64,000 nt of DNA from Pseudomonadota bacterium (lineage in GTDB: Archaea > Thermoplasmatota > SW-10-69-26 > JACQPN01 > JAJPHT01): the NCBI GenBank assembly GCA_021325135.1, contig JAJPHT010000051.1:1-64000 (forward strand), written 5' to 3'. The notes beneath the pieces were generated by a model. That model searched no databases. It was not told the DNA's origin and worked only from the letters and a program-made list of their open reading frames with translations. Below, piece after piece: positions 660-24,148 of the stretch (position 1 is the stretch's first letter; the number at the start of each line of letters is the position of its first letter). The position numbers and the translations under genes are program-made.

Positions 660-672
660 TTGGACCAAGCCC
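660..672 (+). promoter_or_regulatory. recurring motif copy 1 (TTGGACCAAGCCC)
   Basis: The sequence TTGGACCAAGCCC lies 15 bases before the ATG at 688. It contains the palindrome TTGG-A-CCAA followed by GCCC and is one of a family of near-identical sites upstream of genes in 1-24 kb. Confidence 0.6.
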
Positions 673-687
673 CGCCTTAGAACACTC

Positions 688-765
688 ATGTCGCACAGCA
701 AAGCTCTGAATCTCAGTCCTTCCCGCACATTCGTCACGGCGTCCAGCCCAGAGGTGTCTGAATGA
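688..765 (+). CDS. leader micro-ORF (25 aa)
   Basis: This short frame begins at the ATG placed 15 bases after a perfect copy of the recurring motif and ends in a TGA that overlaps the ATG of the next gene (ATGA at 762-765). The 25-residue product is Ser/Pro rich with no recognisable domain. Spacing and overlap suggest either translational coupling to the downstream gene or a real small protein. A similar leader precedes the gene at 8024. Confidence 0.4.
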   Translation: MSHSKALNLSPSRTFVTASSPEVSE

Positions 766-1316
766 TTGCACAAGAGCCCATCGTCTTGACGCTGATCGGC
801 AAGACCCATGCCTTGGACGACGAGGGCGGAGTCTATGCCGGAACCCACGTCACAATCCACCTGACGCACGCATGGGCGGACGCGCTTCTCGACACCATGC
901 GTCGCTGCGCGAGCCTTGCCACGTGGCCTCTCCTGGCGAAGAACGCGCACGCCGCCCGCCTCCACGACATCCGCATCTGGAATCCCATCAGACTCCAGCC
1001 CTGGACGTGCGACGAGGAGGCCGATTGGGACGCCGCGACACGGCCAGCGTTCGAGGGCCTCGACCTCCTCGGCCAAGCGTGGAGCGCGGAGACCGACGCC
1101 TGGTTCCTTCTGCCCGGTGAGGTGCCCATCCTCGAAGACGCTGCCTCGCGCGACGAATTCGCTTACGCGAGCGAGCTGGAATTCCTCCACGTGAGCCCCG
1201 AGGACGCTGCGTGGCGCTTCAACGTGAAGCATACGAGCGTCGTGATCCAGACTCCCGACCTCACGCTGCGCACTCTCGAAGACGCCCTTAGGCGCCTCGA
1301 TCCATCCAGCCCCTAG
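762..1316 (+). CDS. hypothetical protein (184 aa)
   Basis: I do not recognise this protein. It is soluble (no signal peptide or membrane segment), acidic and Trp-rich, with alternating strand/helix character and a C-terminal segment (about residues 150-180) that looks like two strands and a helix. Its ATG overlaps the stop of the 25-codon leader by ATGA, so it is probably the second gene of a two-gene transcript started at the motif at 660. The next motif copy begins 75 bases after its stop. Confidence 0.6.
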   Translation: MIAQEPIVLTLIGKTHALDDEGGVYAGTHVTIHLTHAWADALLDTMRRCASLATWPLLAKNAHAARLHDIRIWNPIRLQPWTCDEEADWDAATRPAFEGLDLLGQAWSAETDAWFLLPGEVPILEDAASRDEFAYASELEFLHVSPEDAAWRFNVKHTSVVIQTPDLTLRTLEDALRRLDPSSP

Positions 1317-1390
1317 GCACTCCTGGACACCAAACCGCAGACGGGGCCGAACGTTCGTCCGCACGATCGCGCCTCATCCTCGCGCCCCCC

Positions 1391-1403
1391 TTGGACCAAG
1401 CCC
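1391..1403 (+). promoter_or_regulatory. recurring motif copy 2 (TTGGACCAAGCCC)
   Basis: A perfect copy of the motif, 14 bases before the ATG at 1418. Its TTG could be read as an in-frame start, but the constant motif-to-ATG spacing elsewhere argues that 1418 is the real start. Confidence 0.6.
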
Positions 1404-1417
1404 ACAGCCTTGAAGCC

Positions 1418-2176
1418 ATGTTGAAACTCCATTCACCGAGCGCAAGCAAGCGAACCTCCGCGTTGTCTGCGAAGCAGAAACCGCGACCGAAATCATGGCT
1501 GACCCTCGGCAACGCCAAAGTTGGTGCGTGGACACCCACGTTCAATCTCCTGCCTGGCGATCCCGCGGAGGTGGCGGGGGGGACGTGCCCAGGCGCGTCT
1601 GCCTGGTGCGGCCAAAGATGTTACGCCCGTAGAGGCCGCCAAGCCTGGCCCAGTGTACGCAACCGCTACGCCTCCAACTTCCAACGCATCCAAGAGGAAG
1701 GTCTCGATGCCTTTGTCAAGGGCGTCGTCGCGGAGATTCGCGGACGGGCGGTTGGCATCGTCCGCCTTCACGCCGCGGGAGACTTCTTCGGCGAGGCGTA
1801 CGCGGACGCTTGGGTGCGCATTGTGCGGGCCTGCCCGCACACGCGCTTCTGGGCGTACACGCGCTCGTACCGCGTCCCCGCTCTCCTCCCCCATTTGGAA
1901 CGCCTACACGCGCTGCCCAACATGCAGCTCTTCGCCAGCATCGATCCCAGTATGCCGATCGTGAACCCCGATGCGCAAGACCTGGCGGCTCGCTACGGCG
2001 CGCCCCTCGGCTGGCGCGTCGCCTTGCTGACCACCCAGATCGAGCCGGGCACGAGCCCCCTGGTCTGCCCCCAGCAGGTCGGGAAGATGCCATCCTGCGC
2101 CGCCTGCCAGTTCTGCTTCTCCCGCACACCCGGCGAGAGCGAGACGCAAGGCCACGTCGCCTTCATCCCCCACTGA
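1418..2176 (+). CDS. Gp88-like phage protein (Cys-rich, 252 aa)
   Basis: It resembles the 'gene product 88' family of phages. An N-terminal LGNAKVGAW-type motif is followed by a cluster of cysteines in a CPGA...WCGQRCYAR context (about residues 58-75), and a second cluster CAACQFC lies near the C-terminus. The middle has an (H/D)-rich segment including RLHAAGDFF. The family's biochemical role is not established; the conserved cysteines suggest metal or Fe-S binding. The start at 1418 is chosen over the TTG at 1391 because that TTG is the first base of the regulatory motif. A PAPS-reductase-like gene follows 23 bases downstream with its own motif copy. Confidence 0.7.
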   Translation: MLKLHSPSASKRTSALSAKQKPRPKSWLTLGNAKVGAWTPTFNLLPGDPAEVAGGTCPGASAWCGQRCYARRGRQAWPSVRNRYASNFQRIQEEGLDAFVKGVVAEIRGRAVGIVRLHAAGDFFGEAYADAWVRIVRACPHTRFWAYTRSYRVPALLPHLERLHALPNMQLFASIDPSMPIVNPDAQDLAARYGAPLGWRVALLTTQIEPGTSPLVCPQQVGKMPSCAACQFCFSRTPGESETQGHVAFIPH

Positions 2177-2185
2177 ACAACGCCC
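2174..2185 (+). promoter_or_regulatory. recurring motif copy 3 (TGAACAACGCCC variant)
   Basis: The variant TGAACAACGCCC overlaps the stop codon of the Gp88-like gene and sits 14 bases before the ATG at 2200, the same spacing as the other copies. Confidence 0.5.
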
Positions 2186-2199
2186 TTCAGCTTCTTCTC

Positions 2200-3261
2200 A
2201 TGCCACAGACGACCCTGGAGAGCTACGCCTCTCCTCCAAAACGCAATCTCCGCCCAGAACCAAGGCTGACCGTCTTGAGTTTCGGAGCAGGTCAGGACTC
2301 CACCGCGATGCTCTACCTCTACCGCTACGACGATGCCTGGCGCGCCCGCTGGGCACCACGGGACTTCCTCGTCGTGTTCAGCGACACCGGAGACGAGCAC
2401 CCCGAGACGTACGCCCACATCGAGCGCACGCGCGCCTGGTGCGCCAAGGAGAACATCGCGTTCGAGACCATCACGAAAGACCGAGGGTATCACGCACCCT
2501 CCTGGAGGGACCTCATCACTCACTACCGCGAGTACGAGACGGTCCAAGTCCACGGCTTCTCCGGCGCGTGCACGCAGCAGCTCAAGATCGCGCCCATCTA
2601 CAAGTTTCTCGACGACTGGATCGGCCAGACCTACGGGTATCCCAGCGGCCAGAAGCGGGCCATCCACGCCTTCGGCCGGGAGCATGGGAAGATCCGCGTC
2701 CTCTTGGGCATGGCCGCCAAGGAGACAAAGCGCGTCCCTTACGAGAAGCGGAAGCCCGAACACCAGACGCTCGCCCTCACGCGGGGCCGGGCCAAGAAAC
2801 CCCTCACCCCGCAGGAGCGCGCCGCGCGAAACAACCCGAGCCTGTGGGGCTACTGGATCGACCAGTGCTTCCCGCTCTACGAGGAGGATATCGACCGCGC
2901 GGGCGCCCAGGCCATCATCAAGCGGTACGGCTGCGAGGTTCCCCCTCCTTCGAACTGCATGCGCTGCCACTACCAGAGTCCCATCGAACTGGTCTGGCTC
3001 TGGCGCTTCCATCCCGACAAGTTCCACGAATGGGAGCAGCTTGAGGAGGCGAAGATCCAGCGCGATGCCGCGGGCCGCCCCGACCGCGAGGGCGGGCTGC
3101 GCGTCATCCCACTCGCGGAGTTCCATGGCGTGTACGGCCACAAGCGATTGCGCGAACGACTCAACGAAGCCCTCGCGCAGCACGGCCACATGACCGACGC
3201 GGAGCTTCACGAGTACAAAATGAGCCACGGCCATTGCACCATGACCAACTGGGGCGGATGA
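2200..3261 (+). CDS. PAPS reductase-like PP-loop ATPase superfamily protein
   Basis: The N-terminus carries a PP-loop nucleotide-binding motif, SFGAGQDSTA (about residues 27-36), as in the phosphoadenosine phosphosulfate reductase/adenine nucleotide alpha-hydrolase fold. Downstream are an ACTQQLKIAPI segment (a Cys before a Lys-Ile-Pro, usual in phage 'PAPS reductase' proteins) and a CMRC pair near residue 260. These proteins are common in phages and in DNA-modification loci (the related DndC acts in phosphorothioation), but no dnd partner is visible here. A cytoplasmic enzyme is likely; its substrate is unknown. The stop lies 4 bases from the stop of the convergent metalloprotease-like gene. 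Confidence 0.75.
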   Translation: MPQTTLESYASPPKRNLRPEPRLTVLSFGAGQDSTAMLYLYRYDDAWRARWAPRDFLVVFSDTGDEHPETYAHIERTRAWCAKENIAFETITKDRGYHAPSWRDLITHYREYETVQVHGFSGACTQQLKIAPIYKFLDDWIGQTYGYPSGQKRAIHAFGREHGKIRVLLGMAAKETKRVPYEKRKPEHQTLALTRGRAKKPLTPQERAARNNPSLWGYWIDQCFPLYEEDIDRAGAQAIIKRYGCEVPPPSNCMRCHYQSPIELVWLWRFHPDKFHEWEQLEEAKIQRDAAGRPDREGGLRVIPLAEFHGVYGHKRLRERLNEALAQHGHMTDAELHEYKMSHGHCTMTNWGG

Positions 3262-3264
3262 CGC

Positions 3265-4020
3265 CTAACCGCCCGGGGTTGTGGACGTCGGGTCGTCCTG
3301 GTGATGATCATGGCGCCGCGCCTCCTCGGGCGAGGTGCCAAGGAGACGGGACAGATTCTCGTAGAATCCCCGTCCATGGGCGTTCCCGTAGCCTCGGCGC
3401 TTGTGCGAGCGGCTCAGGTGGCTGACTTCGTGCGCCATCAAGCGCGCGGGCTCGGTGACCGGATGCCGCCGCATGAGGTGGTCCACGTAGGAGCGCGACA
3501 CGCAGATGTCTCCCCGATGGTGGACCCAGCGCCTGCGCTTCAAGTGGACCAGTTCGCCCTTGATGCGACGCCAGCCCGGCGCGTAACCGACCGGGTGGGT
3601 GTGCACGTGGGCGCGCACGACTCGCGCGCACGCGCCCGGCGTGCCCGCCCAACGCACGGTCGGACGCACGACGCCAAGCGTCGTCGCGAAAGCTTCGGCC
3701 TCCCGTTGGAGGCGTGCCAAGAGCGCGGCCTCGTCCGCCTCCGCAGTCTCCCTCGTCTGCTCCTCCAACGCTTGGAAAAGCGTGGCAGGCTCGTGCACGG
3801 GTTCAGGCGGGGGCTCGGCGGCGCGGCGTTCCACGACGCGCCGGAGCGCGCGAGCGCTGCGCTCATGCCTCTTCATGAGCGTCGTGAGACGCTTGATCTT
3901 CGTAGCCAACTCTCGAACTTTCGTCTCAGCGAGAGCAAGGCGTTCCTCGGGAGTCTTCTTTGCGGCGCGGCGCTGCTTGGGCGTTGATATCACCGTGAAC
4001 GTAACGCCTTGCGAGGACAT
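3265..4020 (-). CDS. coiled-coil/SprT-like zinc metallopeptidase-domain protein
   Basis: The C-terminal third has a zincin motif: HEVSH at residues 197-201 and a third candidate ligand His215 in NAHGRGF, the arrangement of SprT/WLM-type metallopeptidases. Residues 15-115 are a charged, probably coiled-coil region rich in Lys, Arg and Glu. The tail is His/Thr/Pro rich. SprT-like proteases cleave DNA-protein crosslinks in other systems; a role here is inference. It is one of the few minus-strand genes in this region and is flanked by plus-strand units on both sides. Confidence 0.65.
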   Translation of the reverse strand: MSSQGVTFTVISTPKQRRAAKKTPEERLALAETKVRELATKIKRLTTLMKRHERSARALRRVVERRAAEPPPEPVHEPATLFQALEEQTRETAEADEAALLARLQREAEAFATTLGVVRPTVRWAGTPGACARVVRAHVHTHPVGYAPGWRRIKGELVHLKRRRWVHHRGDICVSRSYVDHLMRRHPVTEPARLMAHEVSHLSRSHKRRGYGNAHGRGFYENLSRLLGTSPEEARRHDHHQDDPTSTTPGG

Positions 4021-4136
4021 CTTTCCGTCGGCACGAGCGCGTTTGAGCGCATCGCAACAGTTGAAGCGATGAACACGCGGCGTGATATCACCAGCGCACG
4101 CTCATCGAACTTGAACTTGTTGTGGACACCTCGCGC

Positions 4137-4149
4137 TTGGACCAAGCCC
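4137..4149 (+). promoter_or_regulatory. recurring motif copy 4 (TTGGACCAAGCCC)
   Basis: A perfect copy, 15 bases before the ATG at 4165 of a small zinc-ribbon gene. It lies in the divergent gap between the minus-strand metalloprotease-like gene and the plus-strand operon. Confidence 0.6.
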
Positions 4150-4164
4150 TTCTGCGTTGCTTGA

Positions 4165-4338
4165 ATGAACGATCCATTTGTCTGCATTCGATGTGGAAAG
4201 CCTGCCTACGGCTTCCCCACCCAGGCGGTGTGCCGCGCATGCCGCGGCGCTCCCCGGTCGCCCCCCCGAGTGCTGCGGCCCGATCCCGACGAGTTCCTCC
4301 CCGACCTCCCTGAAGTCCCGATGCCGGAGGCGACATGA
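4165..4338 (+). CDS. small zinc-ribbon protein (57 aa)
   Basis: This 57-residue protein has two CxxC knuckles 12 residues apart (CIRC at 7-10 and CRAC at 23-26), the pattern of a minimal zinc ribbon, followed by a Pro/Asp-rich tail. Its stop overlaps the next ATG (ATGA at 4335-4338). The motif at 4137 precedes its ATG by the standard spacing, which supports it as a real gene and first member of the 4165-6089 operon. Confidence 0.6.
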   Translation: MNDPFVCIRCGKPAYGFPTQAVCRACRGAPRSPPRVLRPDPDEFLPDLPEVPMPEAT

Positions 4339-4739
4339 GGCCACCCAACCCCATCACGGCCCAGCAGAGCGCGGCCATCGACGATCTTCTCGAGGCCTCC
4401 GACGAAGTCGCACGCCTGCTGGACGTCTCCCTCCCCGACCTCATGCCGGCCATCCGGCGCCGCCTGGAGCGTCGGCCGCGTCTCATCTCACGCGAGGAGT
4501 TCGTCGAGCGCCTGCGCACCAACCGCTCGCTCCACGAGCAGGCCACCGAAACGCTGCGCGACCTGAGCCTCGCCTTCGAGCTGCGTGCGGAGGAGCACGA
4601 GGACGCACTCCTGCGCGCCTTGGGCCACGACACCACGGCGCTGGCCAACCTGCGGGAAGAAGCCCACCAATTCCACGCCGCCCTGGCGCGCAGACGAGCC
4701 GACCTCCGCCTGAGCCCGGTCAGGAGCCCGGAGGGATGA
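4335..4739 (+). CDS. hypothetical helical protein (134 aa)
   Basis: No family recognised. It is almost entirely alpha-helical by composition, with Leu/Glu/Arg-rich segments and likely coiled coil over residues 70-125. It begins at an ATGA overlap with the zinc-ribbon gene and ends 4 bases before the GTG of the DpdA-like gene, so it is translated as part of that operon. It could be a partner or adaptor for the transglycosylase-like enzyme; that is inference from position only. Confidence 0.6.
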   Translation: MRPPNPITAQQSAAIDDLLEASDEVARLLDVSLPDLMPAIRRRLERRPRLISREEFVERLRTNRSLHEQATETLRDLSLAFELRAEEHEDALLRALGHDTTALANLREEAHQFHAALARRRADLRLSPVRSPEG

Positions 4740-4743
4740 GCGC

Positions 4744-5655
4744 GTGGCCCGCCTGCGTCGGCGCCCCTTCATCGTCTACGCCGGCAGCGTCGCCGGCCTC
4801 CACGCCCTCCGGGAGCTCATCAAGTTCCAGATGGGGCGCTTGATCGCCGCCACCGCCTGGAAGAACCCGGAGCCTCGCATTCCGTGGTGCTTCGACAACG
4901 GTGCCTACCACGCCTACAGGAAGGCCCTGCGCACGGGCAAGACACCCGTGTTCCCCGAGCGCGAGTTCACCCAATGCCTCTGGGACGAGACGGTGGGGGT
5001 GGGCAAGATCGAGATGGGCCTCTGGGGCGCCACGTTGCGCAGTGTCAAGAACCCCCGCCGCAAGCCCCTCAACACGGGCTTCGCCTCCTGGCCCGACTTC
5101 GGCGTCTGCCCCGACATCGTCATGGGCGGTCGGGAGAGTCTCCACTTCAGCCTCGGCTGGATCGACCGCCTTCCGCGCCAGATCCCATGGCTCTTCGCGG
5201 CCCAAGACGGCATGAGCCTGCGCGACATCGCCTACGCCTGGGAATATGCCCTGGAACTGGAGTGCCCCTTCTCGGGCATCTTCGTGGGCGGCAGCGACGC
5301 CTTCAAGGACGAGATGACGCCCAGCCTGGTGCGCTTCGTGGCGCGCCGGGCCAACGACTACGAGCCCGATCCCTACTGCCACGTGGGTCGGGTCAGCCGT
5401 GTCGAGCGGATTGCCTGGGCCATACGCGTGGGCGCCACGAGCGTCGACAGCAGCGCCTTCGGCCGCGCCCACACCTACCAGCGGGCCCAAGAAGCACGCA
5501 ACCTCGTCCGCGTCCAACGCCACCTGGCGGACCGCGTCACGTTCGAGGAGGATCTCCTCTCCCAGGAGCCCTCGCCCCGATTCGTGAGCCGCAAGCGGCG
5601 CAGGATTCAGCCGACACGGACCCGTGGAAGAAGCCTCCCAGGAACCCCCAGATGA
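4744..5655 (+). CDS. DpdA-like (TGT-fold) deazapurine DNA-modification candidate
   Basis: The sequence matches the pattern of the phage transglycosylase-like proteins related to DpdA/TGT: PWCFDNGAY (about residues 47-55), a C-P-D-I-V segment (about 122), AAQDG (about 151), GIFVGGS followed by a Lys (about 178-186), and a terminal HVGRVSRVER...GATSVDSSAF block (about 213-240). DpdA enzymes replace guanine in DNA with preQ0-type 7-deazaguanines. Start is GTG 4744, just after the upstream stop. No queC/D/E or folE is visible; an archaeal host making archaeosine could supply preQ0. The catalytic residues were not verified, so a TGT-fold protein of other function remains possible. Confidence 0.6.
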   Translation: MARLRRRPFIVYAGSVAGLHALRELIKFQMGRLIAATAWKNPEPRIPWCFDNGAYHAYRKALRTGKTPVFPEREFTQCLWDETVGVGKIEMGLWGATLRSVKNPRRKPLNTGFASWPDFGVCPDIVMGGRESLHFSLGWIDRLPRQIPWLFAAQDGMSLRDIAYAWEYALELECPFSGIFVGGSDAFKDEMTPSLVRFVARRANDYEPDPYCHVGRVSRVERIAWAIRVGATSVDSSAFGRAHTYQRAQEARNLVRVQRHLADRVTFEEDLLSQEPSPRFVSRKRRRIQPTRTRGRSLPGTPR

Positions 5656-6089
5656 CAGAATGGATCAGCGACATCGTATTCTCCTTTGACCAAAACCGAC
5701 GCATCACGAGCGTGCCCTGCCCAGATTGTCCCAGCCGGGAGGGAGAGGTGTGCGTCGGTGTCCCTCAGGGATCTCACCACTTCCGCCGCGTCCAGGCCGC
5801 CGGCGTCCCCACGCCCATCGACGTGGGCCTCTCGGCCTACCTCGACGAAGCCCAGGCCAAGGCGGCCGCCCTCCTGACGCACCCCCCAGCCGCGCTGGCC
5901 GCGGACCTGCGCGCAGGCTACCTCGACGTGCTCGCTCGGGCCTTGGCTCTCCTGGCCGTCTTGGAGCGGAGCGGGCGACGCGACATCCTCGACACAGAAC
6001 CCATGGACATGCTCAGCGAGGCCTTGGAGGAAACGGCGTTCCTGATCCTCGTGGCCCACCACATGGCGGCACGCGACTCCCCCTCATAG
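5652..6089 (+). CDS. phage-type zinc-binding protein (145 aa)
   Basis: Near the N-terminus it has CPDC, then a third Cys (about residue 33), a Gly, and a His-His-x-x-Arg; this CxxC-x(5-6)-C-x(n)-H-x2-R pattern is the one repeated in the 700-residue protein at 13411 and in phage zinc-binding domains. The rest is helical, Ala/Leu rich. Its ATG overlaps the stop of the DpdA-like gene (ATGA at 5652-5655), making it the last member of that operon. Function unknown; nucleic-acid or protein binding through zinc is the simplest guess. Confidence 0.55.
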   Translation: MTEWISDIVFSFDQNRRITSVPCPDCPSREGEVCVGVPQGSHHFRRVQAAGVPTPIDVGLSAYLDEAQAKAAALLTHPPAALAADLRAGYLDVLARALALLAVLERSGRRDILDTEPMDMLSEALEETAFLILVAHHMAARDSPS

Positions 6090-6124: not shown

Positions 6125-6138
6125 CTGAACCAAGTCCC
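6125..6138 (+). promoter_or_regulatory. recurring motif copy 5 (CTGAACCAAGTCCC)
   Basis: The variant CTGAACCAAGTCCC, 13 bases before the ATG at 6152, shows the CTGAA form of the 5' half. Confidence 0.55.
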
Positions 6139-8383: not shown

Positions 8384-8396
8384 CTGAACCAAGCCC
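8384..8396 (+). promoter_or_regulatory. recurring motif copy 6 (CTGAACCAAGCCC)
   Basis: CTGAACCAAGCCC, 15 bases before the ATG at 8412. Confidence 0.6.
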
Positions 8397-9565: not shown

Positions 9566-10915
9566 ATGGACGAACACGAAGCCCGCGAACTCAACGAGGC
9601 CGTTCAGCAGGACGCAGCCGATTGTACGACCTTTCACCTCCTCGACATGCTGGTGAACGACGTCAGCGTCTACCGGATGATCCTGGGCTGGGACGATTCG
9701 CCGCTCCCCGCATGGTTCTGCACCCGCAAGGCACCGAGCTACGCCCTCAAGACGCGGCTCCTGAGCCGAGGCGAGGCTGAGGCAACCATCGATGCCTCGC
9801 GCTTCATCGAGGTGCGCAGGCACGAACCCGAGATCATCAGCTGGACGCCGGACATTCCCAGCATGGAGGATCATGGCATCCTTCTCCCAGGCGCTGTCTA
9901 TGAGTTCTGGGCTCGTCCGGAAGAATTCGCCGCCAAACACGCCGCCTGGGTCCAAGCCGACGTCGCGTTTCCCACGGGCGGGTTCCGACCTCGACCCGGC
10001 TACGCAGGCTCCACCATTGTGGTCCTCCCTCGGAAGCGGCCCTTCCTGAGGGGAGTTCATGAATTGGTGGTGCCTGGCGGCCTGGCGCAGGCCCAGCCAT
10101 TGGTCCTCAGTGAGACGCTCATGGACGGCCCCGTCCACCTCTCGACGAGCAGCACCCCCGTCCGCATCGCGCACGACGCCGACCACGAGGACCACAACCT
10201 ACACCTTCAGCTCGCTGAGTGCGAGCAGACCTTCGCCGCGATTCACGCGGCCACGCCTACATGGGACGTCCACGTTCGCAGGCCAACACGCTTCCGCACA
10301 CGATCCGCCCGCGACATGCGACTCGACCTCTCTCAAGGCGGGGACCATCTCTCCTCCGCGAGCGTAGGACTGATCGGCGAAATTCGCATGTCGTTCGCCG
10401 CCGGCGACGCAAACGCATTGATCAGCGAACTACGCTCCATCGCAACCGAACAGCCTTGGCGGACGCGCGTTCCGGAATTCGGCTTTTCGCCTGATGCCCA
10501 ACTCCTCTACATCCCTGCAAGAAGCGACCCTCAAGCCCTTGCCATGGCACGTCTCTGGTTCCAGTCCGATGACGGCCCCATCGCCCTGTGCGATCCCTAC
10601 GCATCGCCCGAAAGCATCACCGCCTACCTTGGCAAGACGCGCAAGCTTCGGGTTCTCATGGGCTCGCGGCAATGGCGAGAGTTGACAGCCATCCGGCAGC
10701 GTGACCTTCGCAAGCAGGCAACGGAGTTGCGCACGCTCCCCAAAGAGATCCACGACCGGTTCTTGATCACCGCCGAGTCTGCATACGTCCTGGGATGCTC
10801 GCTCAACGCAATCGGCAGCGCGCACTCCTTCATCGTCCGCGTCGACCACCGTCACCGCCTCGAACTCGAAGGCATCTTCAACACACTCTGGGAGAACGCC
10901 ACGCCGCCCGCGTGA
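9566..10915 (+). CDS. large hypothetical protein with PLD-like C-terminal motif (449 aa)
   Basis: The first ~300 residues match nothing I recognise. The last ~60 residues have the layout of a phospholipase-D-like half-site as found fused to helicases and restriction-type proteins: IHDRFLIT (about 395-402), then YVLGCSLNAIGSAHSF and a hydrophobic strand. Only one such half-motif is visible, so activity would need a dimer or a diverged first site (perhaps GSRQW near residue 370). It starts 27 bases after the membrane protein at 9095 and may share its transcript. Confidence 0.5.
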   Translation: MDEHEARELNEAVQQDAADCTTFHLLDMLVNDVSVYRMILGWDDSPLPAWFCTRKAPSYALKTRLLSRGEAEATIDASRFIEVRRHEPEIISWTPDIPSMEDHGILLPGAVYEFWARPEEFAAKHAAWVQADVAFPTGGFRPRPGYAGSTIVVLPRKRPFLRGVHELVVPGGLAQAQPLVLSETLMDGPVHLSTSSTPVRIAHDADHEDHNLHLQLAECEQTFAAIHAATPTWDVHVRRPTRFRTRSARDMRLDLSQGGDHLSSASVGLIGEIRMSFAAGDANALISELRSIATEQPWRTRVPEFGFSPDAQLLYIPARSDPQALAMARLWFQSDDGPIALCDPYASPESITAYLGKTRKLRVLMGSRQWRELTAIRQRDLRKQATELRTLPKEIHDRFLITAESAYVLGCSLNAIGSAHSFIVRVDHRHRLELEGIFNTLWENATPPA

Positions 10916-10981: not shown

Positions 10982-10995
10982 CCTGAACCAAGCCC
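10982..10995 (+). promoter_or_regulatory. recurring motif copy 7 (CCTGAACCAAGCCC)
   Basis: CCTGAACCAAGCCC, 13 bases before the ATG at 11009 of the DNA methyltransferase gene. Confidence 0.6.
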
Positions 10996-11008: not shown

Positions 11009-12175
11009 ATGGTAGTCCAAGGACACGCCAGCAGCAAGCCTGATTCCCACTTTCCTCACCAGACTTTCCAGACGCATCTAGGCGCTCTGCCACCTGCCCA
11101 GAAGACTAGTCCCTCCATCGCCCTCTGGGAAGCCAATGTTCTCGCCGACCTCGCTACAATGTCCTATGAAGAGGTCTCCGCGAAGCATGGCATCAGCCGA
11201 GGCAAGATCTGGAAACTCGCCCTCCGCCACAACGCGAGAAAGAACGAAGCACGAATCCAAGAACGCGCAGCCGCACGCGCCCGGCGACGGAAAGAGTTCC
11301 TTCAGGAGCTCCTCAACGCGTCCACGACGAGCGACGTCCTGGATTTCCTGGATGGGCTGCCGGATGAGTCGGTGGCGCTTCACATCACGTCGCCTCCCTA
11401 TAATGTGGGCAAGCCGTACGGCGACGCGCACCTGATCGACAAGCACCGCTTCCACTACTACATCGGCTGGCTTCTCCAAGTCGTCAGCGAGCTGGCCCGG
11501 ACGACGGCGCAGGGCGGGGTGATCTGTCTCCAGGTGGGCAACACGCACACGGACCAAGGCGCGCGCTACCCCCTTGACTGCGTCCTCTTCGAGCACCTCT
11601 GCGCCATGGGCCTGACCTACCAGGACCGCGTCGTCTGGGAATTCCCCCACGGCCTCACGCCCAAGAACCGGCTCGCCGAGCGCTACGAAGTCATGCTCAT
11701 TTTCAGCAAGGGCGCGCCCAAGACCTTCAACGCCACGCCCGCCCGCACGCCCCAGAAGGAACCCGACAAGCGCGCCTTCAAAGGACCCAACAAAGGCAAG
11801 TTGAGCGGCAACCCCTTCGGCGCCCACCCCACGAACGTGTGGCGCATCCGCCACCTGGGCCACAACCACAAGGAGCGAACCGGCCACCCCGCCCAGTTCC
11901 CCGAGGAGCTCGCCCGACGCGCCGTGCTTCTCTACACCATGCCCGGCGATCTCGTGGCCGATGTCTTTTCCGGAAGCGGGACAGCCCTGGCCGTCGCCAA
12001 GAAAACAGGTCGCGCCTTCGTCGGAGCCGACCTATACTACGAGGATCTCCGCGCGCAGCGGCTTGCCGCCATCGAGCCCGACCTCGCTAGCACCCTTCCC
12101 GGCGTGACGCCTGAGTCCATCGCCATCTGGGCGGCCGAAGCCCGAGCCGTCACGGCGAGCGCCACCCCATCCTGA
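11009..12175 (+). CDS. N4-cytosine/N6-adenine DNA methyltransferase
   Basis: This is a beta-class-type amino-methyltransferase: the catalytic motif TSPPYNVGKPYG lies at about residues 127-138 and the SAM-binding motif VFSGSGTAL at about 318-326, in that order. A GGVICLQVGN strand and a target-recognition region (about 205-290) lie between. The N-terminus has a helix-turn-helix-like segment (YEEVSAKHGISRGKIWKLAL, about 52-71). No restriction endonuclease is adjacent, so it looks like a solitary (orphan) methyltransferase, as often carried by viruses and plasmids. ATG 11009 is chosen by motif spacing; an upstream in-frame start overlaps the motif. Confidence 0.85.
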   Translation: MVVQGHASSKPDSHFPHQTFQTHLGALPPAQKTSPSIALWEANVLADLATMSYEEVSAKHGISRGKIWKLALRHNARKNEARIQERAAARARRRKEFLQELLNASTTSDVLDFLDGLPDESVALHITSPPYNVGKPYGDAHLIDKHRFHYYIGWLLQVVSELARTTAQGGVICLQVGNTHTDQGARYPLDCVLFEHLCAMGLTYQDRVVWEFPHGLTPKNRLAERYEVMLIFSKGAPKTFNATPARTPQKEPDKRAFKGPNKGKLSGNPFGAHPTNVWRIRHLGHNHKERTGHPAQFPEELARRAVLLYTMPGDLVADVFSGSGTALAVAKKTGRAFVGADLYYEDLRAQRLAAIEPDLASTLPGVTPESIAIWAAEARAVTASATPS

Positions 12176-13127: not shown

Positions 13128-13142
13128 TTGAACAAACCGCCC
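13128..13142 (+). promoter_or_regulatory. recurring motif copy 8 (TTGAACAAACCGCCC variant)
   Basis: A degenerate copy (TTGAACAAACCGCCC) exactly 13 bases before the ATG at 13156. A second partial copy (TTGGACACCACCC) directly abuts that ATG. Confidence 0.4.
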
Positions 13143-13384: not shown

Positions 13385-13397
13385 TTGGACAAAGCCC
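13385..13397 (+). promoter_or_regulatory. recurring motif copy 9 (TTGGACAAAGCCC)
   Basis: TTGGACAAAGCCC lies 13 bases before the ATG at 13411. An earlier ATG at 13399 is only 1 base away, so by the family's spacing rule 13411 is the start. Confidence 0.55.
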
Positions 13398-13410: not shown

Positions 13411-15513
13411 ATGACACGACAATCACGAGCCAGTCCCGAACGTCACAAGAAGATCGAGCGCGACTCCGAGCGTGCCCTCGAGGTCATGCGCCTGATCGCC
13501 CAGATTGAGACGAACAACCACAACGTCCCGTACGCGGGCATCCACGGCGCAGCGGCCGTGCCCTGCAGCACGTGCTACGCCCTGCCCCCGCATCCGTGCC
13601 TTCGCCCCAGCGGGCACGTCACGCGAGCGGGCTTCGGCGCCTTCCACGCCGCCCGACGTGCGTTGGCCGAACGCGTCAGCCTCGTGGGCCTGATCTGCCA
13701 GGATTGCAGCACCCCCGACGGGCCAGCCCACGACGACGAGGACGTCGGGCACTACGTTGCCGCCGTGGCCGACAGCGAAGAGAACCACAAGGCCGACCTC
13801 CCCATCGGGCGCCTGCTGTGCGGCCCCTGTTTCGCCAAGCGCGTCGGCACGGACCCACTCCCCCTGAAGCCCAAGCGAACCACGAAGAAGCACCTGAAAG
13901 ACCCGCAGCATCCCCCCAAGACAGACAAGCCGGCCGCCGAAGCGCCCTTCGAGACCGAGGGCTGGGTGCTCCTGGAGCACACCGTCACCATGGATGACGG
14001 ACGCACCTCGACGACACGCTTCTTCGTCAAGAAGGACCGGCCCCCCAAGACCGGGAGACCCATCCCATTGCCCGCGGACAGCGCCGTCGTCTGGACTCCT
14101 GCGGGGCCCGAACTGCGCGCAGCTCTACGACGCGGGCCCAGAGGGCGCCAGGCGCTCGCCCCGCTCCCGCATGAGCAGGCGTTGCCGCGCCTAGGGGGTC
14201 CGCATGACGCCCTCCGCGATGTGGAACTGTTCGGCCTCGACTCCGGACGACCCGAGAATGACGAGGCCGAAGCAAGGGCGCGCCGCACCTTCCTCGCTGA
14301 GGCCCACGCGGAGCGTTCCGACGCAGAGGCAGAGTTCGCTCGGTTGGCCGCCCAAGCATCCCTCATCGGAAAGCCGCTAGCGCAACCGACGACGACATCG
14401 AAACACTCGGACGGAGAGGCCGAGGGTCAGGTTCTCGTCATGGTGCGCGAAGCAGCGGAGCGCCACTTCCTCGTCTTCCGCGCCATCTTCGGGGAGCGCC
14501 GCGTCCGGAAATCTGGTCCTCCCTTCGCGTGGGGCAATCGGAGCCTTCTCGAAACGATCCTTCCTGCCTGCCTCGCGTTCGCGCGGGTCCACGGCGCGGC
14601 GCGCTTCCGCGTCGTGACCCCCGACGGGATGGGTCGCGAGTACGCCATCAAGGGCACCGAGGAGGCCACGCGCCTGAAGCCGATCGCGACGGGCCGGCGG
14701 CTCATGTACACGCGGCCTCCAACCGAGGCCGAATGCCAAGAGGCCGTCGAACTCGCCTTGGAGGTCGCCTGCTGCGTCTGCGCGGCCCCGCCCCACGTGA
14801 CTTGCAAGGGCGGCAAGCTACACGCGCCCCGCTTCGAGGCTGGCTGCCCGCCCTGTGTCGGATGGAATGGCCAACTCACACAGGCGCGAGGCACCCAGCC
14901 CGACAGCCCCACGGTCGCGAAGCCGGAGACCGCGACGTGCGCCACATGCGGACGCGACGACCTACGACAACGGACGAACGGCAACCTCGTCGCGCACGAC
15001 ACGCCGACAGGCGCACGTTGCGATGGCCAGCGGGCCCTGGGTGAGGATACCGCCCGCCGACACCTCTTGGCCCGCACCACGATGGAGGCCTACGCCGCCC
15101 GGCGCGATGCCCTCCTGAGCATCGCGCCGACTCCCGACCAGTGGGAGCCGCGCCAAGTCGAACTCCGGGAGGAGATCCAGCGCTGGATCAGCCTGGGCTT
15201 CCGCATCGGCACCGAGCCCTTCGAACGCTTCTGCCCGGACTGCCACGCTCCGCCATTCCTGTTGTGCATCGACAACGGCAAGCCGTGGGATGCCCCCGGC
15301 CTGAGCCCAACCCAGACCCACGCGGCCCGCCGTGCCGGTCCCACAGTCCAGGCCAGTGCCTCTACCCCACCGGCCCTGGCTAGTACCCCCAAGCCACAGA
15401 TCCCGGCATCAACTCAGCCTGCGGAGCCTCGACCGGCCTCACTGGAAGGATGGAAGCCCACCATCCAGGCGCGCCTGACCCGGTGGGTCGCCGACAGCCC
15501 AGCGACCCCGTAG
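13411..15513 (+). CDS. multi-zinc-finger phage-type protein (700 aa)
   Basis: At least three copies of the pattern CxxC-x(4-7)-C-x(n)-Gly-x(n)-His-x2-Arg are visible, starting at Cys52, Cys454 and Cys608; the last two have A-P-P between the Cys pair and the third Cys. A diverged fourth begins at Cys510. Between them lie a second N-terminal Cys set (CQDC/CGPC), a charged linker and a ~120-residue region (about 340-440) with mixed alpha/beta character. The Cys pattern is that of phage zinc-binding domains. No catalytic motif was found. It may be a scaffold or nucleic-acid-binding protein; this is inference. Confidence 0.6.
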   Translation: MTRQSRASPERHKKIERDSERALEVMRLIAQIETNNHNVPYAGIHGAAAVPCSTCYALPPHPCLRPSGHVTRAGFGAFHAARRALAERVSLVGLICQDCSTPDGPAHDDEDVGHYVAAVADSEENHKADLPIGRLLCGPCFAKRVGTDPLPLKPKRTTKKHLKDPQHPPKTDKPAAEAPFETEGWVLLEHTVTMDDGRTSTTRFFVKKDRPPKTGRPIPLPADSAVVWTPAGPELRAALRRGPRGRQALAPLPHEQALPRLGGPHDALRDVELFGLDSGRPENDEAEARARRTFLAEAHAERSDAEAEFARLAAQASLIGKPLAQPTTTSKHSDGEAEGQVLVMVREAAERHFLVFRAIFGERRVRKSGPPFAWGNRSLLETILPACLAFARVHGAARFRVVTPDGMGREYAIKGTEEATRLKPIATGRRLMYTRPPTEAECQEAVELALEVACCVCAAPPHVTCKGGKLHAPRFEAGCPPCVGWNGQLTQARGTQPDSPTVAKPETATCATCGRDDLRQRTNGNLVAHDTPTGARCDGQRALGEDTARRHLLARTTMEAYAARRDALLSIAPTPDQWEPRQVELREEIQRWISLGFRIGTEPFERFCPDCHAPPFLLCIDNGKPWDAPGLSPTQTHAARRAGPTVQASASTPPALASTPKPQIPASTQPAEPRPASLEGWKPTIQARLTRWVADSPATP

Positions 15514-18686: not shown

Positions 18687-19604
18687 GTGGTGGCCGTGGA
18701 CGCGCGGTCGAGTGTTGCCCAACTTCTCGCGCAAGGGGAGCAGTTGGAGCGGGACGTCGCCGGCTTGATGAAGCCGCGGGACCGGAAGGTGGTGGGGCAG
18801 TTCGGCCGTGCCGCGGCCCGTGAACTGAGCTTGCCACCCCTCGCGCAAACCGTTTCGGGACTCTTTTTTGACGGCAAGCTCAAGGAGCGACAGGCCGAAC
18901 TCGAGGCTCGCTGCAACGCGCTCTACACCCAAGCTCGTTCCGTCTTGGGGCAGGTCTCGGTCTACAAGCCATCGATCAAGATCGGCGGCAACAGCGCTGA
19001 GCTCGTACGTCAACTCGCCAAGGCGAACGATGGCGTCAAGCTCCTAACTCGAATCCGGAACCTGAATCGCGTGCTGCGCCGCCTTTCTGAGGCGGATCTC
19101 GTCTACAACGCCCACATCCCGGCGCGGATCAAGGAGGAGCAAATCCGAACGTGGCACGAGGAACGCGAACGTCGGGCATTGCGCTACGTGGACCTCTCCG
19201 ACTTGCCACCCGGCTTCGTCTCGATCAAGTTCCCCAACCGCGAAGCCCTCCTGAGCCGATTGGGCGGATACCCCGCCGTGCGGGAGATCATGGAGGGCGC
19301 CATCCACGCCGCCTCCGGGGATGCCCCTGATGGCCGCCAACAAGCGCTCGGCTCCTGCCGACGCGCTTTGGAAGCCCTGGGGCGCGAACTGACGGGAAAA
19401 GGCGACTGGCGCGAGATTGTCCTCCGCGTCGCCGACCCCGACGTTGGCGCCTTGCTACGCAAGCTCTACTCACTCCTTAGCGCAAAGGGCGCCCACGGAG
19501 GCAAACGCGCCTCCGAAGCGGATGTCGAACTAGGCATGCAACAGACCTTCGGAGCTCTCTTCTGGATGATCGAACACCGCACCAGCTTGGGGAGCAGAAG
19601 ATAG
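18687..19604 (+). CDS. helical protein, possible Abi/HEPN-like defence component (305 aa)
   Basis: Mostly helical. The C-terminal ~90 residues (RRALEALGRELTG..., LSAKGAHGG, then ASEADVELGMQQTFGALFW) resemble the helical C-terminal domains of abortive-infection proteins, in which a Gly-His motif precedes a long hydrophobic helix; this is a weak similarity. The start is GTG 18687, about 30 bases after an AT-rich TAAATGACTATT that could be a TATA box. It begins a run of genes with defence-like features up to 23013. Confidence 0.45.
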   Translation: MVAVDARSSVAQLLAQGEQLERDVAGLMKPRDRKVVGQFGRAAARELSLPPLAQTVSGLFFDGKLKERQAELEARCNALYTQARSVLGQVSVYKPSIKIGGNSAELVRQLAKANDGVKLLTRIRNLNRVLRRLSEADLVYNAHIPARIKEEQIRTWHEERERRALRYVDLSDLPPGFVSIKFPNREALLSRLGGYPAVREIMEGAIHAASGDAPDGRQQALGSCRRALEALGRELTGKGDWREIVLRVADPDVGALLRKLYSLLSAKGAHGGKRASEADVELGMQQTFGALFWMIEHRTSLGSRR

Positions 19605-19637
19605 GTTCCCAGCACGCGTCGCATGGGATGACCACCA

Positions 19638-19646
19638 TCCAAGCCC
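19638..19646 (+). promoter_or_regulatory. recurring motif, partial copy 10 (CCAAGCCCC)
   Basis: Only the 3' half (ATCCAAGCCCC) is kept, about 14 bases before the ATG at 19661. An in-frame ATG also exists upstream at 19628, so this copy is uncertain. Confidence 0.3.
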
Positions 19647-19660
19647 CTCAAAATGAGTCA

Positions 19661-20965
19661 ATGACCCGAGCCTGGAACGGCGGTTCCTTCATCAGGGTCT
19701 TGCGGGTTTCGGCGGGCATGTCATCCACAAGTCCTCGGTTGTGGGTCGTGACGATCCGTGCGACGTCCTCGATTCGGCTCAAGGACGATACCATCCTCTA
19801 CGTGCAGGCGGGCCCCGATTCGTCGCTGCCCGTCCGCGGCGTACGCTTGCGGAACTGGCGTAGCGAGGGTCAGGATGGAGCGATGGGACTCTTGGCCCAG
19901 GCCGCGGGCGAGTATGCCAGTGCCGAGGCCGCCGTCGCCACGCTGGCCAATCTGGCCTCGCCCTACCTTCAATTGGCGGCCATCGCGGCCAACGCGACGA
20001 TCAGCGAACCATTCGAGGTGATGGCCTCCGCCCCACCTCGAATGCCGACTGACACAGGCACCTTCGTCGTGGAGCGCCCCATCCAGCCCCAGTGGTCGCC
20101 GTGGGTAAGGCGGGAGCTTGACGCGAACGCCCTCAAGGAGTTCAGCCAAGCCGTCGAAGCCCACCCCCGCAAGGACCGGCTCCACCGAGCGATGGCCCAC
20201 TACAGCCTCGCCCTGGACAAGCTCGATCCAGGGAACTGGATCATGGCCGCGGAGCACCTCTACATGGCCGTGGAAAACCTCGGCCGCGTCGTCCACCAAC
20301 GCCTGCTCCAAGCCGGCGGGCTACCCGACACGGGCGAAAGCAAACACAAGCTCGCCATCGCCCACGGCTTCCAACCCGCGAACGAGAAGGACCGCTCCCA
20401 CCTCAATCGGTATGACGCCTGGGTCCGTGAAACTCACGTCTTTGGTGGCGACCGCGACTGCTACAAGAAGCTCCTCGACGCCAGCGACAAGCTCGAACAC
20501 GGCCTCTCCGGTTTCGATGAAATCCGCGGCCACGCCGACCAGGCCACCCTGAAAGCCTACGGCTACGTACGGCGCGCCATCCTCCGCGAGGCTGGCGTCC
20601 CCAAATCCTCGGAACTCTTCGCCAAGCGCCTGGACCTCCCCCTGGGACCGCTGCGGCCGATCATGGTTCTCGAAGGCACGTACACCGACACCTCGACGAC
20701 GCCCGAGCCCAACCCAGACCCTATCCAGGAGCCTTGGCCCATCTTCGATGGGCTCCAGCTCGCCGTGGAGATCGACCAAGTGACAGACGGTAAGGAGGAT
20801 GCGCGCCACGTCCAGCTCAAAGTGAACGGAGACGGCAGCCCCTTGAGCCCGGCGCAGACCGTCCACAGCCTCAAGCACACGCTCCTCTACCAGCATCCTG
20901 AAAAGGGAACGGTCACGATCCCAGTGTCGCCCACCGAAATCACCGTCCATGAACGTGCGCCGTGA
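19661..20965 (+). CDS. HEPN-like/helical hypothetical protein (434 aa)
   Basis: The middle (about residues 175-290) is a helical region with HYSLALDKLDPGNWIMAAEH, the kind of Asn-Trp helix pair seen in HEPN-type and ApeA-like proteins; this is inference. The N-terminal part is beta-rich (DDTILYVQAGPDSSLPVRGV) and the C-terminal ~90 residues are strands separated by a Pro-rich linker. It follows the Abi-like gene by about 56 bases on the same strand. ATG 19628 is an alternative start. Confidence 0.5.
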   Translation: MTRAWNGGSFIRVLRVSAGMSSTSPRLWVVTIRATSSIRLKDDTILYVQAGPDSSLPVRGVRLRNWRSEGQDGAMGLLAQAAGEYASAEAAVATLANLASPYLQLAAIAANATISEPFEVMASAPPRMPTDTGTFVVERPIQPQWSPWVRRELDANALKEFSQAVEAHPRKDRLHRAMAHYSLALDKLDPGNWIMAAEHLYMAVENLGRVVHQRLLQAGGLPDTGESKHKLAIAHGFQPANEKDRSHLNRYDAWVRETHVFGGDRDCYKKLLDASDKLEHGLSGFDEIRGHADQATLKAYGYVRRAILREAGVPKSSELFAKRLDLPLGPLRPIMVLEGTYTDTSTTPEPNPDPIQEPWPIFDGLQLAVEIDQVTDGKEDARHVQLKVNGDGSPLSPAQTVHSLKHTLLYQHPEKGTVTIPVSPTEITVHERAP

Positions 20966-20982
20966 AGCGTTCCAGCCGCGGG

Positions 20983-21792
20983 TTATCTCGGCTTGGGGCT
21001 TTCTGTGGGGTCGAGCTGCATTGTGGAGACGCTGAGGAAGCGGCCCTGGGGCGGCGTCCAGACGGCGCGGACCCACTCCGGAACATCCGCGTGGCGGCCC
21101 GCAAGGCTCGCGCGCGCTTGTCGGCCGGCAGCGTAGGCGACGAAGTCGGCCACTTCGACGCCAGGCTCGGCGAGCTTGCTGGGCGAGAAGAACTTCTCGG
21201 TCGGGATGGGGTGCAGCCCAGTATCGTTCTGGATGGCGAAGTGATAGGTTCCAAAGACGCGGCTGTATCTGGCGCGCAGCCGGTCGGTGGCCTCGAAGAT
21301 CATGAACGCGCGGGCGTACGATGTCGTGGGAATCGCCTCGGCGATCTTTGGCATGAGCGCCAGCGCGAAGGAGGCCATGAGCTCGTCGTTCCCGCGCAAG
21401 TCGCTTGAGGCCTCGACAAGCTGCTGGCCTGGATGCGTTGTGGCGTGGGTGAAGCCGCGGCCAACGCGGTTGAAATCACTGTGCAGGAAGAAGTCACGGA
21501 TCGGGTCGAGGAGATCGCGTGGGGCGCCGTTGAGGTCCTTGGCGTGCAGGTGCGTGTCAGCCCTGCCGAAGTGTTCCTCCTTCATGCGGCGCCACGGCCC
21601 ACGGATGAGAGCGAGGTAGTTGGCCACGGTGGTGACGACCGCGCCCATGCAGAAAACGGGCGATCCATCGCCAGAGGCCGTGGGAACCTCGTGGCCGCTC
21701 TCGTCGAGGAAGACCACGACATCAGAAGGGTCTGGTTGGACGGATTCCTGCCCGATGTTCAGGGTCCAAGTCCAACCTCCCGAAGCAGGCAC
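20983..21792 (-). CDS. DUF3800-family protein
   Basis: It has the DUF3800 signature: a first strand ending VVVFLDESG (about residues 24-32, acidic pair on a strand), GADTHLHAKDL-type central sequence, and a final VEVADFVAYAAGRQAR helix with Asp. The fold is considered RNase H-like, and members are common in phage-defence loci and mobile elements. Start GTG 21792 lies about 25 bases from the TATA box at 21815, which fits a leaderless transcript and places the start after the longer open frame seen upstream. It converges with the gene ending at 20965. Confidence 0.75.
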   Translation of the reverse strand: MPASGGWTWTLNIGQESVQPDPSDVVVFLDESGHEVPTASGDGSPVFCMGAVVTTVANYLALIRGPWRRMKEEHFGRADTHLHAKDLNGAPRDLLDPIRDFFLHSDFNRVGRGFTHATTHPGQQLVEASSDLRGNDELMASFALALMPKIAEAIPTTSYARAFMIFEATDRLRARYSRVFGTYHFAIQNDTGLHPIPTEKFFSPSKLAEPGVEVADFVAYAAGRQARASLAGRHADVPEWVRAVWTPPQGRFLSVSTMQLDPTESPKPR

Positions 21793-21814
21793 ACGACGCG
21801 ACAGAATCGCCGGG

Positions 21815-21824
21815 CTATATATGG
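21815..21824. promoter_or_regulatory. shared divergent TATA box
   Basis: CTATATATGG reads as a TATA box on both strands. It lies about 25-30 bases before the DUF3800 start (minus) and about 50 bases before the DUF4917 start (plus), so one symmetric box may serve both genes. Confidence 0.55.
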
Positions 21825-21870
21825 CCTCGTTAGTGCGGGATCGTGGCGAGTCCTGAGGGGGCCTGAATCT

Positions 21871-23013
21871 GTGGCGGTCCACGTCCTCGACTACCTCAAA
21901 GAAGTCCTGCCCACAGGGCCCAAGGCCCCGTGGCCCACGGAAGGGGGACGCATTCTCCTCTTGGGGAACGGCTTCAGCATCGACCGCGACTCGGCGTTCC
22001 ACTACGACTCACTCTGGAACGTTGCCAGCGCAGCCGGCGCCCTTTCTCCCCGCGCGAAGGACTTGGCGGCCAAGCTGGGCACGACGAACTTCGAGACGGT
22101 CCTCGCCGCGCTCGAAACCCAACGCGGCCGCGACAAAGACATCGACGAGGACATCCAAGGCGTCCGGCTGGCTCTCATCACCGCGCTCAAGAAAATCCAC
22201 CTGGAACCCCATGTCGCTTTCAGTGAGCACGAGATCGCCTCGTGCGCCTTCTTCCTGGGCCAATTCAAGGAAGTCTTCACCACCAACTACGATCTCCTCC
22301 TCTACTGGATCTCCAACAAGAAGCACAAGCTCCTGGGCACCGGCGAGGAAGGCGCCTTGATCCAGTTGTTCAAGGACGGCTTCTGCCTCGAGGGGCAAGT
22401 CCCTGACGCTCTCGCCTTCGCACGCAGCGTCATGCTCCACCCCAAGGAGGGCACGCCCCAGCGCGGCTTCCACTTCCTGCATGGCGCCCTGCATCTGCTC
22501 CAGCAGGACGGTGTGGCGTGGAAGCGTCGCGTCCGCACCGCCGAATTGATGGGCCACAAGTTCAAGCTCGACTACCTGCGCCGCGACATCGTCGCGGCCA
22601 TCGAGAGGGGTCACCTGCCCCTCTTCGTCTCGGAGGGCGACAGCCAACGCAAGCTGGGACGCATCCGCGCCAACAATTACCTCCGCTTCTGCTACGACCG
22701 GCTCCAAAAAGGCGTCACTGGTGATCTTGTGACGTTCGGCTTCTCCTTCTCCGCGCAGGACGATCACATCCTCGAAGCCATCGCCAGAAACGCAGCCATC
22801 CGGCGCATCTTCGTGGGCGCCCGTCTCTACGAAGCTCAACCCAAGGAGGACCTGGTCAAACGCGTCGAACACCTGCGCGCCCGGCGCGAGGCCATCGCGA
22901 CCACGGCGCTGCTCCCGTACGAGCCGCTCGATGTCCTTTACTATGACGCGAGCACCGCATGCCCGTGGAACTCGCCTCTGGGGAAGGGCGATCACCCGCA
23001 TTGGAAGAAGTAG
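21871..23013 (+). CDS. DUF4917-family protein (SIR2-like defence candidate)
   Basis: The N-terminus has LLLGNGFSIDRDSAFHYDSL (about residues 30-49), the hallmark of DUF4917 and related SIR2-like proteins, with VFTTNYDLLLYW near residue 135 and later FHFLHGALHLL and FGFSFSAQDDHIL. These motifs form a Rossmann-type NAD(+)-binding pattern, and such proteins are often found in anti-phage islands where they deplete NAD. The NADase role is inference. Start GTG 21871 is preceded by GAGGGGG. It is divergent from the DUF3800 gene. Confidence 0.7.
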   Translation: MAVHVLDYLKEVLPTGPKAPWPTEGGRILLLGNGFSIDRDSAFHYDSLWNVASAAGALSPRAKDLAAKLGTTNFETVLAALETQRGRDKDIDEDIQGVRLALITALKKIHLEPHVAFSEHEIASCAFFLGQFKEVFTTNYDLLLYWISNKKHKLLGTGEEGALIQLFKDGFCLEGQVPDALAFARSVMLHPKEGTPQRGFHFLHGALHLLQQDGVAWKRRVRTAELMGHKFKLDYLRRDIVAAIERGHLPLFVSEGDSQRKLGRIRANNYLRFCYDRLQKGVTGDLVTFGFSFSAQDDHILEAIARNAAIRRIFVGARLYEAQPKEDLVKRVEHLRARREAIATTALLPYEPLDVLYYDASTACPWNSPLGKGDHPHWKK

Positions 23014-23117
23014 TCGCTCGCGGGAATCATACGTTTCCTTCCGCAGGATGGGCCTCCGGTTGCACGGTGCCCATCAAGCCCTTCTCCGCGACGCATCGAA
23101 GGTGGGACCGACTGCGT

Positions 23118-23324
23118 TCACGGGCTCGCAAGTTCGTGCTTTGCCCGCCGGGGGTCATGGATGGCACGCACGACGTCCATCAGGCGCAGCCACTTGCCGC
23201 AAGAGGGGCAGGCCGTGCCGCCAGCGCGGGTCACGCTAATGAGGTGAACGCCGTGCGAGGCGGCGCAGATGGGGCAAACGAAAGGCACGAGCACGATGGC
23301 CTTGGACTCCGGAATACGACCCAC
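23118..23324 (-). CDS. small zinc-ribbon protein (68 aa)
   Basis: The minus-strand frame from GTG 23324 encodes two CxxC pairs (CPIC near residue 17 and CPSC near residue 39) around a strand-rich segment (HGVHLISVTRAGGTA), a textbook zinc ribbon. The C-terminal part is helical and basic. The 250 bases that follow (23325-23575) show no convincing gene. Confidence 0.5.
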   Translation of the reverse strand: MGRIPESKAIVLVPFVCPICAASHGVHLISVTRAGGTACPSCGKWLRLMDVVRAIHDPRRAKHELASP

Positions 23325-23575
23325 CCCCGTGGGGGCCTAACAAGCAAGAACTTGGTCATAAACGCTCTTGCGCCCATGCCGCCCAGGGCAGGCCAGCCCG
23401 CCAGTCCCTCTCTCAGGATGGCTCGTAGAAACCGTACCTAATCCGGCTGGCCGAACGCCTGGCGCAACGCGACCCATATGAACCCGACGCGGGTTTCATG
23501 CGAACTTCTAAGGCCCGGCTCGCCCACGGTTGCTCCGAGGGCACCCCGCGCGCCCTCCAGTCCCTGAACAAAGCC

Positions 23576-24148
23576 ATGCATCCAAGGGACTCCCATGCAA
23601 ACCGACAACCACGCCAAGTCTGCCTCCAGCACGCTGGAGGCGATGATCTGAACTTCTGGCCCCTCGCGTGGGCCAGCCTCCTGCTGGCTCTCACCCTCAA
23701 GTTCCGGCTCGTGCAACGCCTCACCGCGTCGATCCGCCGAGCACCTGCCCAAAGCCCTGCACCCACGTCACCCATGGATCCTATTCCTGAGCCCCTGCCG
23801 CACGCCAATGACCTAATCATCGTCCCCCTCCGCACAGCTTCCCCCTCGCTCCTGGAGCGCATGGAAGCCGCCGGCGAAGTCGCCCTCGCCGATCACAAAG
23901 CCCGCATGGCCCGCCTTGACGCGCTCTGTCTCGCCGTCGCGGACGCCCACGAAGAACGCGACGCGATCCTCCGCCTCGTCCCCGAAACGCAAGAGTGCCC
24001 CGCGTGGCCGCCTGCAGAGGCCCTCGCCGATATGTTCCGCGAGACTCCCGCTGTGGAGCTCCTACGTCGCCTCCCCATGGACCTCGACCTCCGCCCCGAC
24101 GACCATCGCCCCCTGAGCGCGTGGCAGGAGAGAGCCACATGGAACTAG
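23576..24148 (+). CDS. hypothetical protein upstream of parB-like gene (190 or 124 aa)
   Basis: The frame starts at ATG 23576 immediately after a motif-like CTGAACAAAGCC, but a second motif-like CTGCCCAAAGCCC lies 16 bases before the in-frame ATG 23774, which by the spacing rule may be the true start (124 residues). The longer form adds a membrane-like segment (FWPLAWASLLLALTLKF). The common C-terminal part is helical, acidic and Pro-rich. It ends 25 bases before the ParB-domain gene and is likely co-transcribed with it. No family recognised. Confidence 0.45.
   Translation: MHPRDSHANRQPRQVCLQHAGGDDLNFWPLAWASLLLALTLKFRLVQRLTASIRRAPAQSPAPTSPMDPIPEPLPHANDLIIVPLRTASPSLLERMEAAGEVALADHKARMARLDALCLAVADAHEERDAILRLVPETQECPAWPPAEALADMFRETPAVELLRRLPMDLDLRPDDHRPLSAWQERATWN
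23744..23757 (+). promoter_or_regulatory. recurring motif, variant copy 11 (CTGCCCAAAGCCC)
   Basis: The variant CTGCCCAAAGCCC precedes ATG 23774 by 16 bases. It lies inside the longer version of the gene, so it supports the shorter start. A second variant (CTGAACAAAGCC, 23564-23575) directly abuts ATG 23576. Confidence 0.3.

Follow-up and report, generated by a model that had tools for sequence, protein, structure and literature searches.

A fixed-position motif without a TATA box before the genes of two accessory elements of a Thermoplasmatota archaeon, probably a core promoter for leaderless transcripts

The window analysed here is a stretch of 64,000 nucleotides (assembly GCA_021325135.1, contig JAJPHT010000051.1, positions 1 to 64,000 of the forward strand), the left part of which carries an accessory element with the following genes.

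688-765, plus strand: frame of 25 residues opened by the ATG that follows the motif described below, just 5' of the gene at 762-1316
1418-2176, plus strand: gene with a phage Gp88 domain (PF17338, E 6e-34) and phage relatives
2200-3261, plus strand: PAPS-reductase-like gene (PF01507)
4165-4338, plus strand: CxxC protein of 57 residues, with the motif at 4137
11009-12175, plus strand: N6/N4 DNA methyltransferase (PF01555, E 1e-45)
13411-15513, plus strand: protein of 700 residues with a phage zinc-finger domain (PF24623)

The genes at 4335 and 4744 overlap or nearly abut their predecessors, lack the motif and are preceded by GGAGG, and the motif-free right part of the element encodes ParB and DUF4917 proteins. 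No convincing copies lie between 15600 and 26000, and this stretch, which differs in content by its ParB, DUF3800 and DUF4917 genes (the last matching the candidate defence family PDC-S21), may be a separate island. The protein encoded at 9566-10915, beside the methyltransferase gene, weakly matches the VPA1262 family and the candidate defence family PDC-S05.

A sequence-only reading of this DNA had placed copies of a conserved motif at a near-constant distance before nine start codons. All nine are present, with the motif starting 26-28 nt 5' of the ATG in each case, as listed below.

660-672, plus strand: putative promoter motif TTGGACCAAGCCC, ATG 688 at 28 nt; 19.4 bits with a matrix trained on contig C46 (see below)
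1391-1403, plus strand: putative promoter motif TTGGACCAAGCCC, ATG 1418 at 27 nt
2173-2185, plus strand: weaker putative promoter motif CTGAACAACGCCC, ATG 2200 at 27 nt; 11.6 bits; overlaps the stop codon of the preceding gene
4137-4149, plus strand: putative promoter motif TTGGACCAAGCCC, ATG 4165 at 28 nt
6125-6137, plus strand: putative promoter motif CTGAACCAAGTCC, ATG 6152 at 27 nt
8384-8396, plus strand: putative promoter motif CTGAACCAAGCCC, ATG 8412 at 28 nt
10983-10995, plus strand: putative promoter motif CTGAACCAAGCCC, ATG 11009 at 26 nt
13128-13140, plus strand: weak putative promoter motif TTGAACAAACCGC, ATG 13156 at 28 nt; below 11 bits with the C46-trained matrix
13385-13397, plus strand: putative promoter motif TTGGACAAAGCCC, ATG 13411 at 26 nt

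Of two further copies that had been described as weak, that before 19661 is no motif at all (0.4 bits), and that before 23774 is doubtful at 10.5 bits. The latter is outscored by a 15.8-bit copy at 23564-23576, which lies 31 nt before the ATG of a very short frame.

A first weight matrix was trained on the nine window sites alone and then run over the other contigs of the same genome. This revealed a second dense region, at approximately 10-57 kb of contig C46, in which about 33 further genes, encoded on the minus strand, carry the motif at the same spacing, whereas chromosomal control stretches gave scattered matches only. Conversely, a matrix trained on C46 only recovered seven of the nine window sites at 17.8-19.8 bits. 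The consensus, YTGRACSAAGYCC, is a 12-letter signal of some 12-13 bp. Across 42 sites its first column is mainly C/T and is followed by T G R A C S A A G Y C C, with columns 3, 6 and 8 invariant and columns 2, 5, 9, 10 and 12 almost so. In ATG-aligned sites the motif spans approximately -27 to -15 from the A of the ATG and is centred near -21, and every gene-linked copy is oriented in the direction of its gene. The palindromic core TTGG-A-CCAA that had been attributed to the motif is not a general property of it, as the perfect dyad occurs in only 4 of the 42 copies, the dyad pairs 1-9, 3-7 and 4-6 are not kept and the consensus is asymmetric.

The motif is confined almost entirely to these two elements. 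The 76 kb of element DNA contained 35 copies of at least 16 bits, against three in 1,474 kb sampled elsewhere, and an ATG lay 25-30 nt downstream of 30 of the former and of none of the latter; at a threshold of at least 14 bits, each of 20 column-shuffled matrices gave between zero and three matches. A loose pattern combining motif and ATG matched the whole genome 36 times, with 33 matches in the two element regions (C29:1-14 kb or C46:10-57 kb) and the other three on contigs C5, C27 and C31, while the reversed control pattern had no match in the whole genome. The earlier observation that the chromosomal part of the window shows no copy acting as a gene start signal thus holds genome-wide. When 57 sets of loci of the genome were screened de novo for 8-mers recurring at a constant distance upstream of the ATG, the motif emerged in both regions and no comparable word emerged outside them. 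Taken together, the motif is almost certainly a functional start signal specific to the two elements. When 390 genomes of the phylum were searched, none but the source genome gave more than three matches. An exact search of IMG/VR for the motif with its ATG returned 25 contigs with a single match each and no cluster of looser copies, and these were taken as chance occurrences.

The second element encodes a cytosine-5 methyltransferase, an Eco57I-type methyltransferase, an ATP-dependent ligase and a DUF3560 protein, together with an XPG/FEN1-like nuclease and a PF01555 methyltransferase. Judged by their predicted proteins, the two elements appear to share almost nothing recognisable apart from the PF01555 domain, which occurs in both. 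No common protein was found by blastp at 1e-3, and phmmer, run on mechanically called and partly overlapping ORFs, gave marginal matches (best 1.7e-4 and 4.8e-4) that were not treated as homology. Neither capsid nor terminase was recognised in the elements, and their edges showed no tRNA and no exact terminal repeats of at least 13-14 bp resembling attachment sites. Searches of phage and plasmid databases gave distant domain-level matches only, no DUF3560 homologue was present in 389 other genomes of the phylum, and searches for exact peptides of five element proteins among viral contigs, and of one among genome contigs, returned nothing. Structure prediction for two orphan proteins yielded no usable model (pLDDT 32-36). 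The first 160 kb of C46 has a GC content of 0.66-0.68 versus 0.73 for the rest of the contig and is probably a large accessory region, within which the motif is limited to 10-57 kb.

AT content is 0.48-0.50 in the spacer between motif and ATG versus 0.31-0.33 farther upstream, and a C occupies position -1 in 37 of 42 motif genes (P 8e-10), a preference tied to the ATG and not to the motif. Shine-Dalgarno (SD) sequences of at least 5 nt precede none of the 42 motif genes versus 8 of 20 motif-less genes (P 4e-5), the scoring of the latter resting on less certain starts. As the sequence-only reading had noted, the motif genes have no TATA box: an A/T run of at least 5 within -35 to -20 was seen in one of 42, and TATA-like hexamers occur at only two positions near the gene starts of the elements. 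Upstream of the motif no column exceeded 0.4 bit, and hence no BRE-like conservation was detected there. The motif genes thus display the pyrimidine-purine initiator at the ATG, the AT-rich melting region and the absence of SD sequences that characterise leaderless starts, and they display neither the A/T-rich box at about -30 to -23 nor the purine-rich BRE of a canonical archaeal promoter. Within C46 the motif precedes 36 of 38 genes separated from their upstream neighbour by at least 30 nt and none of 14 with a gap of at most 20 nt (counted by hand from the gene table and then tested, and inflated to a degree, since gene starts were partly picked by the motif), and no overlapping or abutting gene carries it. 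There are also one-strand gene arrays with gaps of 36-56 nt and a copy in each gap.

On these sequence features, we think it likely that the motif is a core promoter of non-TATA type, giving rise to leaderless transcripts. At approximately -27 to -15 it would overlap the place of the TATA box in leaderless archaeal promoters, the AT-rich stretch 3' of it could melt, and the C/A initiator placed at the ATG would let transcription begin there or very close by, giving a leaderless mRNA. The motif would thereby stand at the head of transcription units, with internal genes lacking it and more often relying on a Shine-Dalgarno sequence. Of the options raised earlier (promoter, operator or translation signal), a core promoter is the best reading: the motif lies where a core element would, always in the same orientation and at genes with an upstream gap, and downstream of it come an AT-rich spacer and a C/A initiator. 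A palindromic operator and a translation signal that pairs with rRNA are both disfavoured. Since the host's own genes lack the motif, it would be a private promoter of the elements. Against a core promoter stand the length of 12-13 bp and the centre near -21, which differ from those of the classical TATA box (centred at -27/-28 in Haloferax; PMC5974055), together with the lack of conservation at the BRE place and of a candidate reader protein. The likely TATA box of the class II promoters of halovirus HF2, which start at the A, lies at -19 to -26 (PMC8707807), nearly the same place as the motif.

The regulon-like, element-specific distribution of the motif and the palindromic form of some copies would also suit an operator, bound by an element-encoded repressor or activator and laid over ordinary promoters with degenerate TATA boxes. 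Such boxes are usual in GC-rich Haloferax, where they occur in 98% of promoters (PMC8553660). An operator is nevertheless improbable here, as the dyad is rarely intact, the orientation is fixed relative to the gene, the spacing to the start is held within about 2 nt in the manner of a core element, and no further conserved promoter element lies upstream. The near-constant distance to the ATG, and the occurrence of the motif at genes unable to use translational coupling, could instead reflect a translation-initiation signal in an mRNA leader, to which the ribosome or a translation factor would bind in place of a Shine-Dalgarno sequence. We regard this as quite improbable. Complementarity to 16S rRNA (that of a genome of the same family, with an intact anti-SD, the host 16S being absent from the assembly) was not above that of shuffled controls, with a best pairing run of 7 and only 3-4 nt within the last 30 nt; in addition, the SD sites sit on motif-less genes, and the AT-rich spacer and the C/A initiator suit transcription. 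A translation signal read by a protein is less strongly disfavoured than one that pairs with rRNA. Cleavage of long polycistronic transcripts near the motif, yielding leaderless-like mRNAs, is compatible with the one-strand arrays in which each gap has its own copy, yet it leaves the initiator and the spacer unexplained and no processing enzyme was identified, making RNA processing a most improbable origin of the pattern.

A core promoter of this kind has partial counterparts in known systems. Archaeal BRE/TATA core promoters with leaderless mRNAs have been described in Haloferax volcanii (PMC4983044) and halovirus HF2 (PMC8707807), and the motif is like them in its fixed position just 5' of a start that would coincide with the ATG or lie close to it, in the AT-rich melting region and in the presence of SD sequences mainly at internal genes. 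It is unlike them in being a GC-containing, asymmetric 12-mer with no A/T run and no upstream BRE, and in being found in two elements only. The rod viruses of Sulfolobus are a further case of archaeal mobile elements in which a motif of their own recurs at many promoters, namely a virus-specific signature with a GTC motif downstream of the TATA box (reviewed in PMC5569661); SIRV, however, retains both the TATA box and the BRE, with GTC as an addition, whereas here there is no TATA box and the motif stands in its stead. Promoters with one motif per gene are also described for giant viruses (NCLDV, PMC5294985). These resemble the present case in having a short motif close 5' of many genes that is not a start signal in host genes. 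No transcription machinery of their own was found in the two elements, unlike in the NCLDV. Such giant viruses encode their own transcription machinery. The site of the GvpE activator in haloarchaeal gas-vesicle promoters consists of 8-nt half-sites of sequence TGAACCAA, and part of the motif resembles this half-site. However, the GvpE site is bipartite and located farther upstream than the BRE and TATA box (PMC4390858), whereas the motif is a single site overlapping the TATA position. A 2017 review describes archaeal viruses as having clear TATA and BRE elements and depending on host machinery (PMC5569661). A clean core motif of non-TATA type that recurs in about 40 copies at strict spacing and is missing from host genes would be unusual.

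It thus looks as though nearly every transcription unit of two accessory, mobile-type elements in a salt-environment Thermoplasmatota archaeon is marked by this motif at the place of the TATA box. The motif provides reliable start codons and transcription units for elements that are otherwise unannotatable, a signature for locating more such elements and a probe for finding the protein that reads it.

As to that protein, which the sequence-only reading had suggested could be encoded by the element, neither TBP, TFB nor RNA polymerase was found in either element; for RNA polymerase, no DFDGD-type signature was present and none was among the Pfam matches, many of the proteins being without a match. 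The host genome encodes one TBP and three TFBs, all outside the motif regions, and is therefore archaeal. The host TBP shares 91% identity with the one from a MAG titled Halobacteriales archaeon MAG107, and the next closest are from Thermoplasmata MAGs such as CSSed11_322R1 and SW_10_69_26, which we take to come from hypersaline sites. The TBP gene itself has TATAAA 29 nt before its ATG, indicating that ordinary leaderless TATA promoters exist in the host cell. A promoter profile built from the longest host ORFs was too noisy to give a host consensus. Possible readers of the motif are a host TFB variant, a TBP of relaxed specificity and an unrecognised factor that would bind DNA and bring in the RNA polymerase of the host. 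That two elements with so little common protein both use the motif makes it plausible that the reader is encoded by the host or is a factor exchanged rapidly. More tentatively, and with rather less than even confidence, we suggest that the motif may represent a TATA-independent class of archaeal promoter, in which a dedicated factor, much like an alternative sigma factor, would replace or re-target TBP/TFB for mobile elements and would be common to them through the same host. The three TFB genes, which accompany the single TBP gene, lie on contigs C47, C19 and C12, and one of their products could read the motif.
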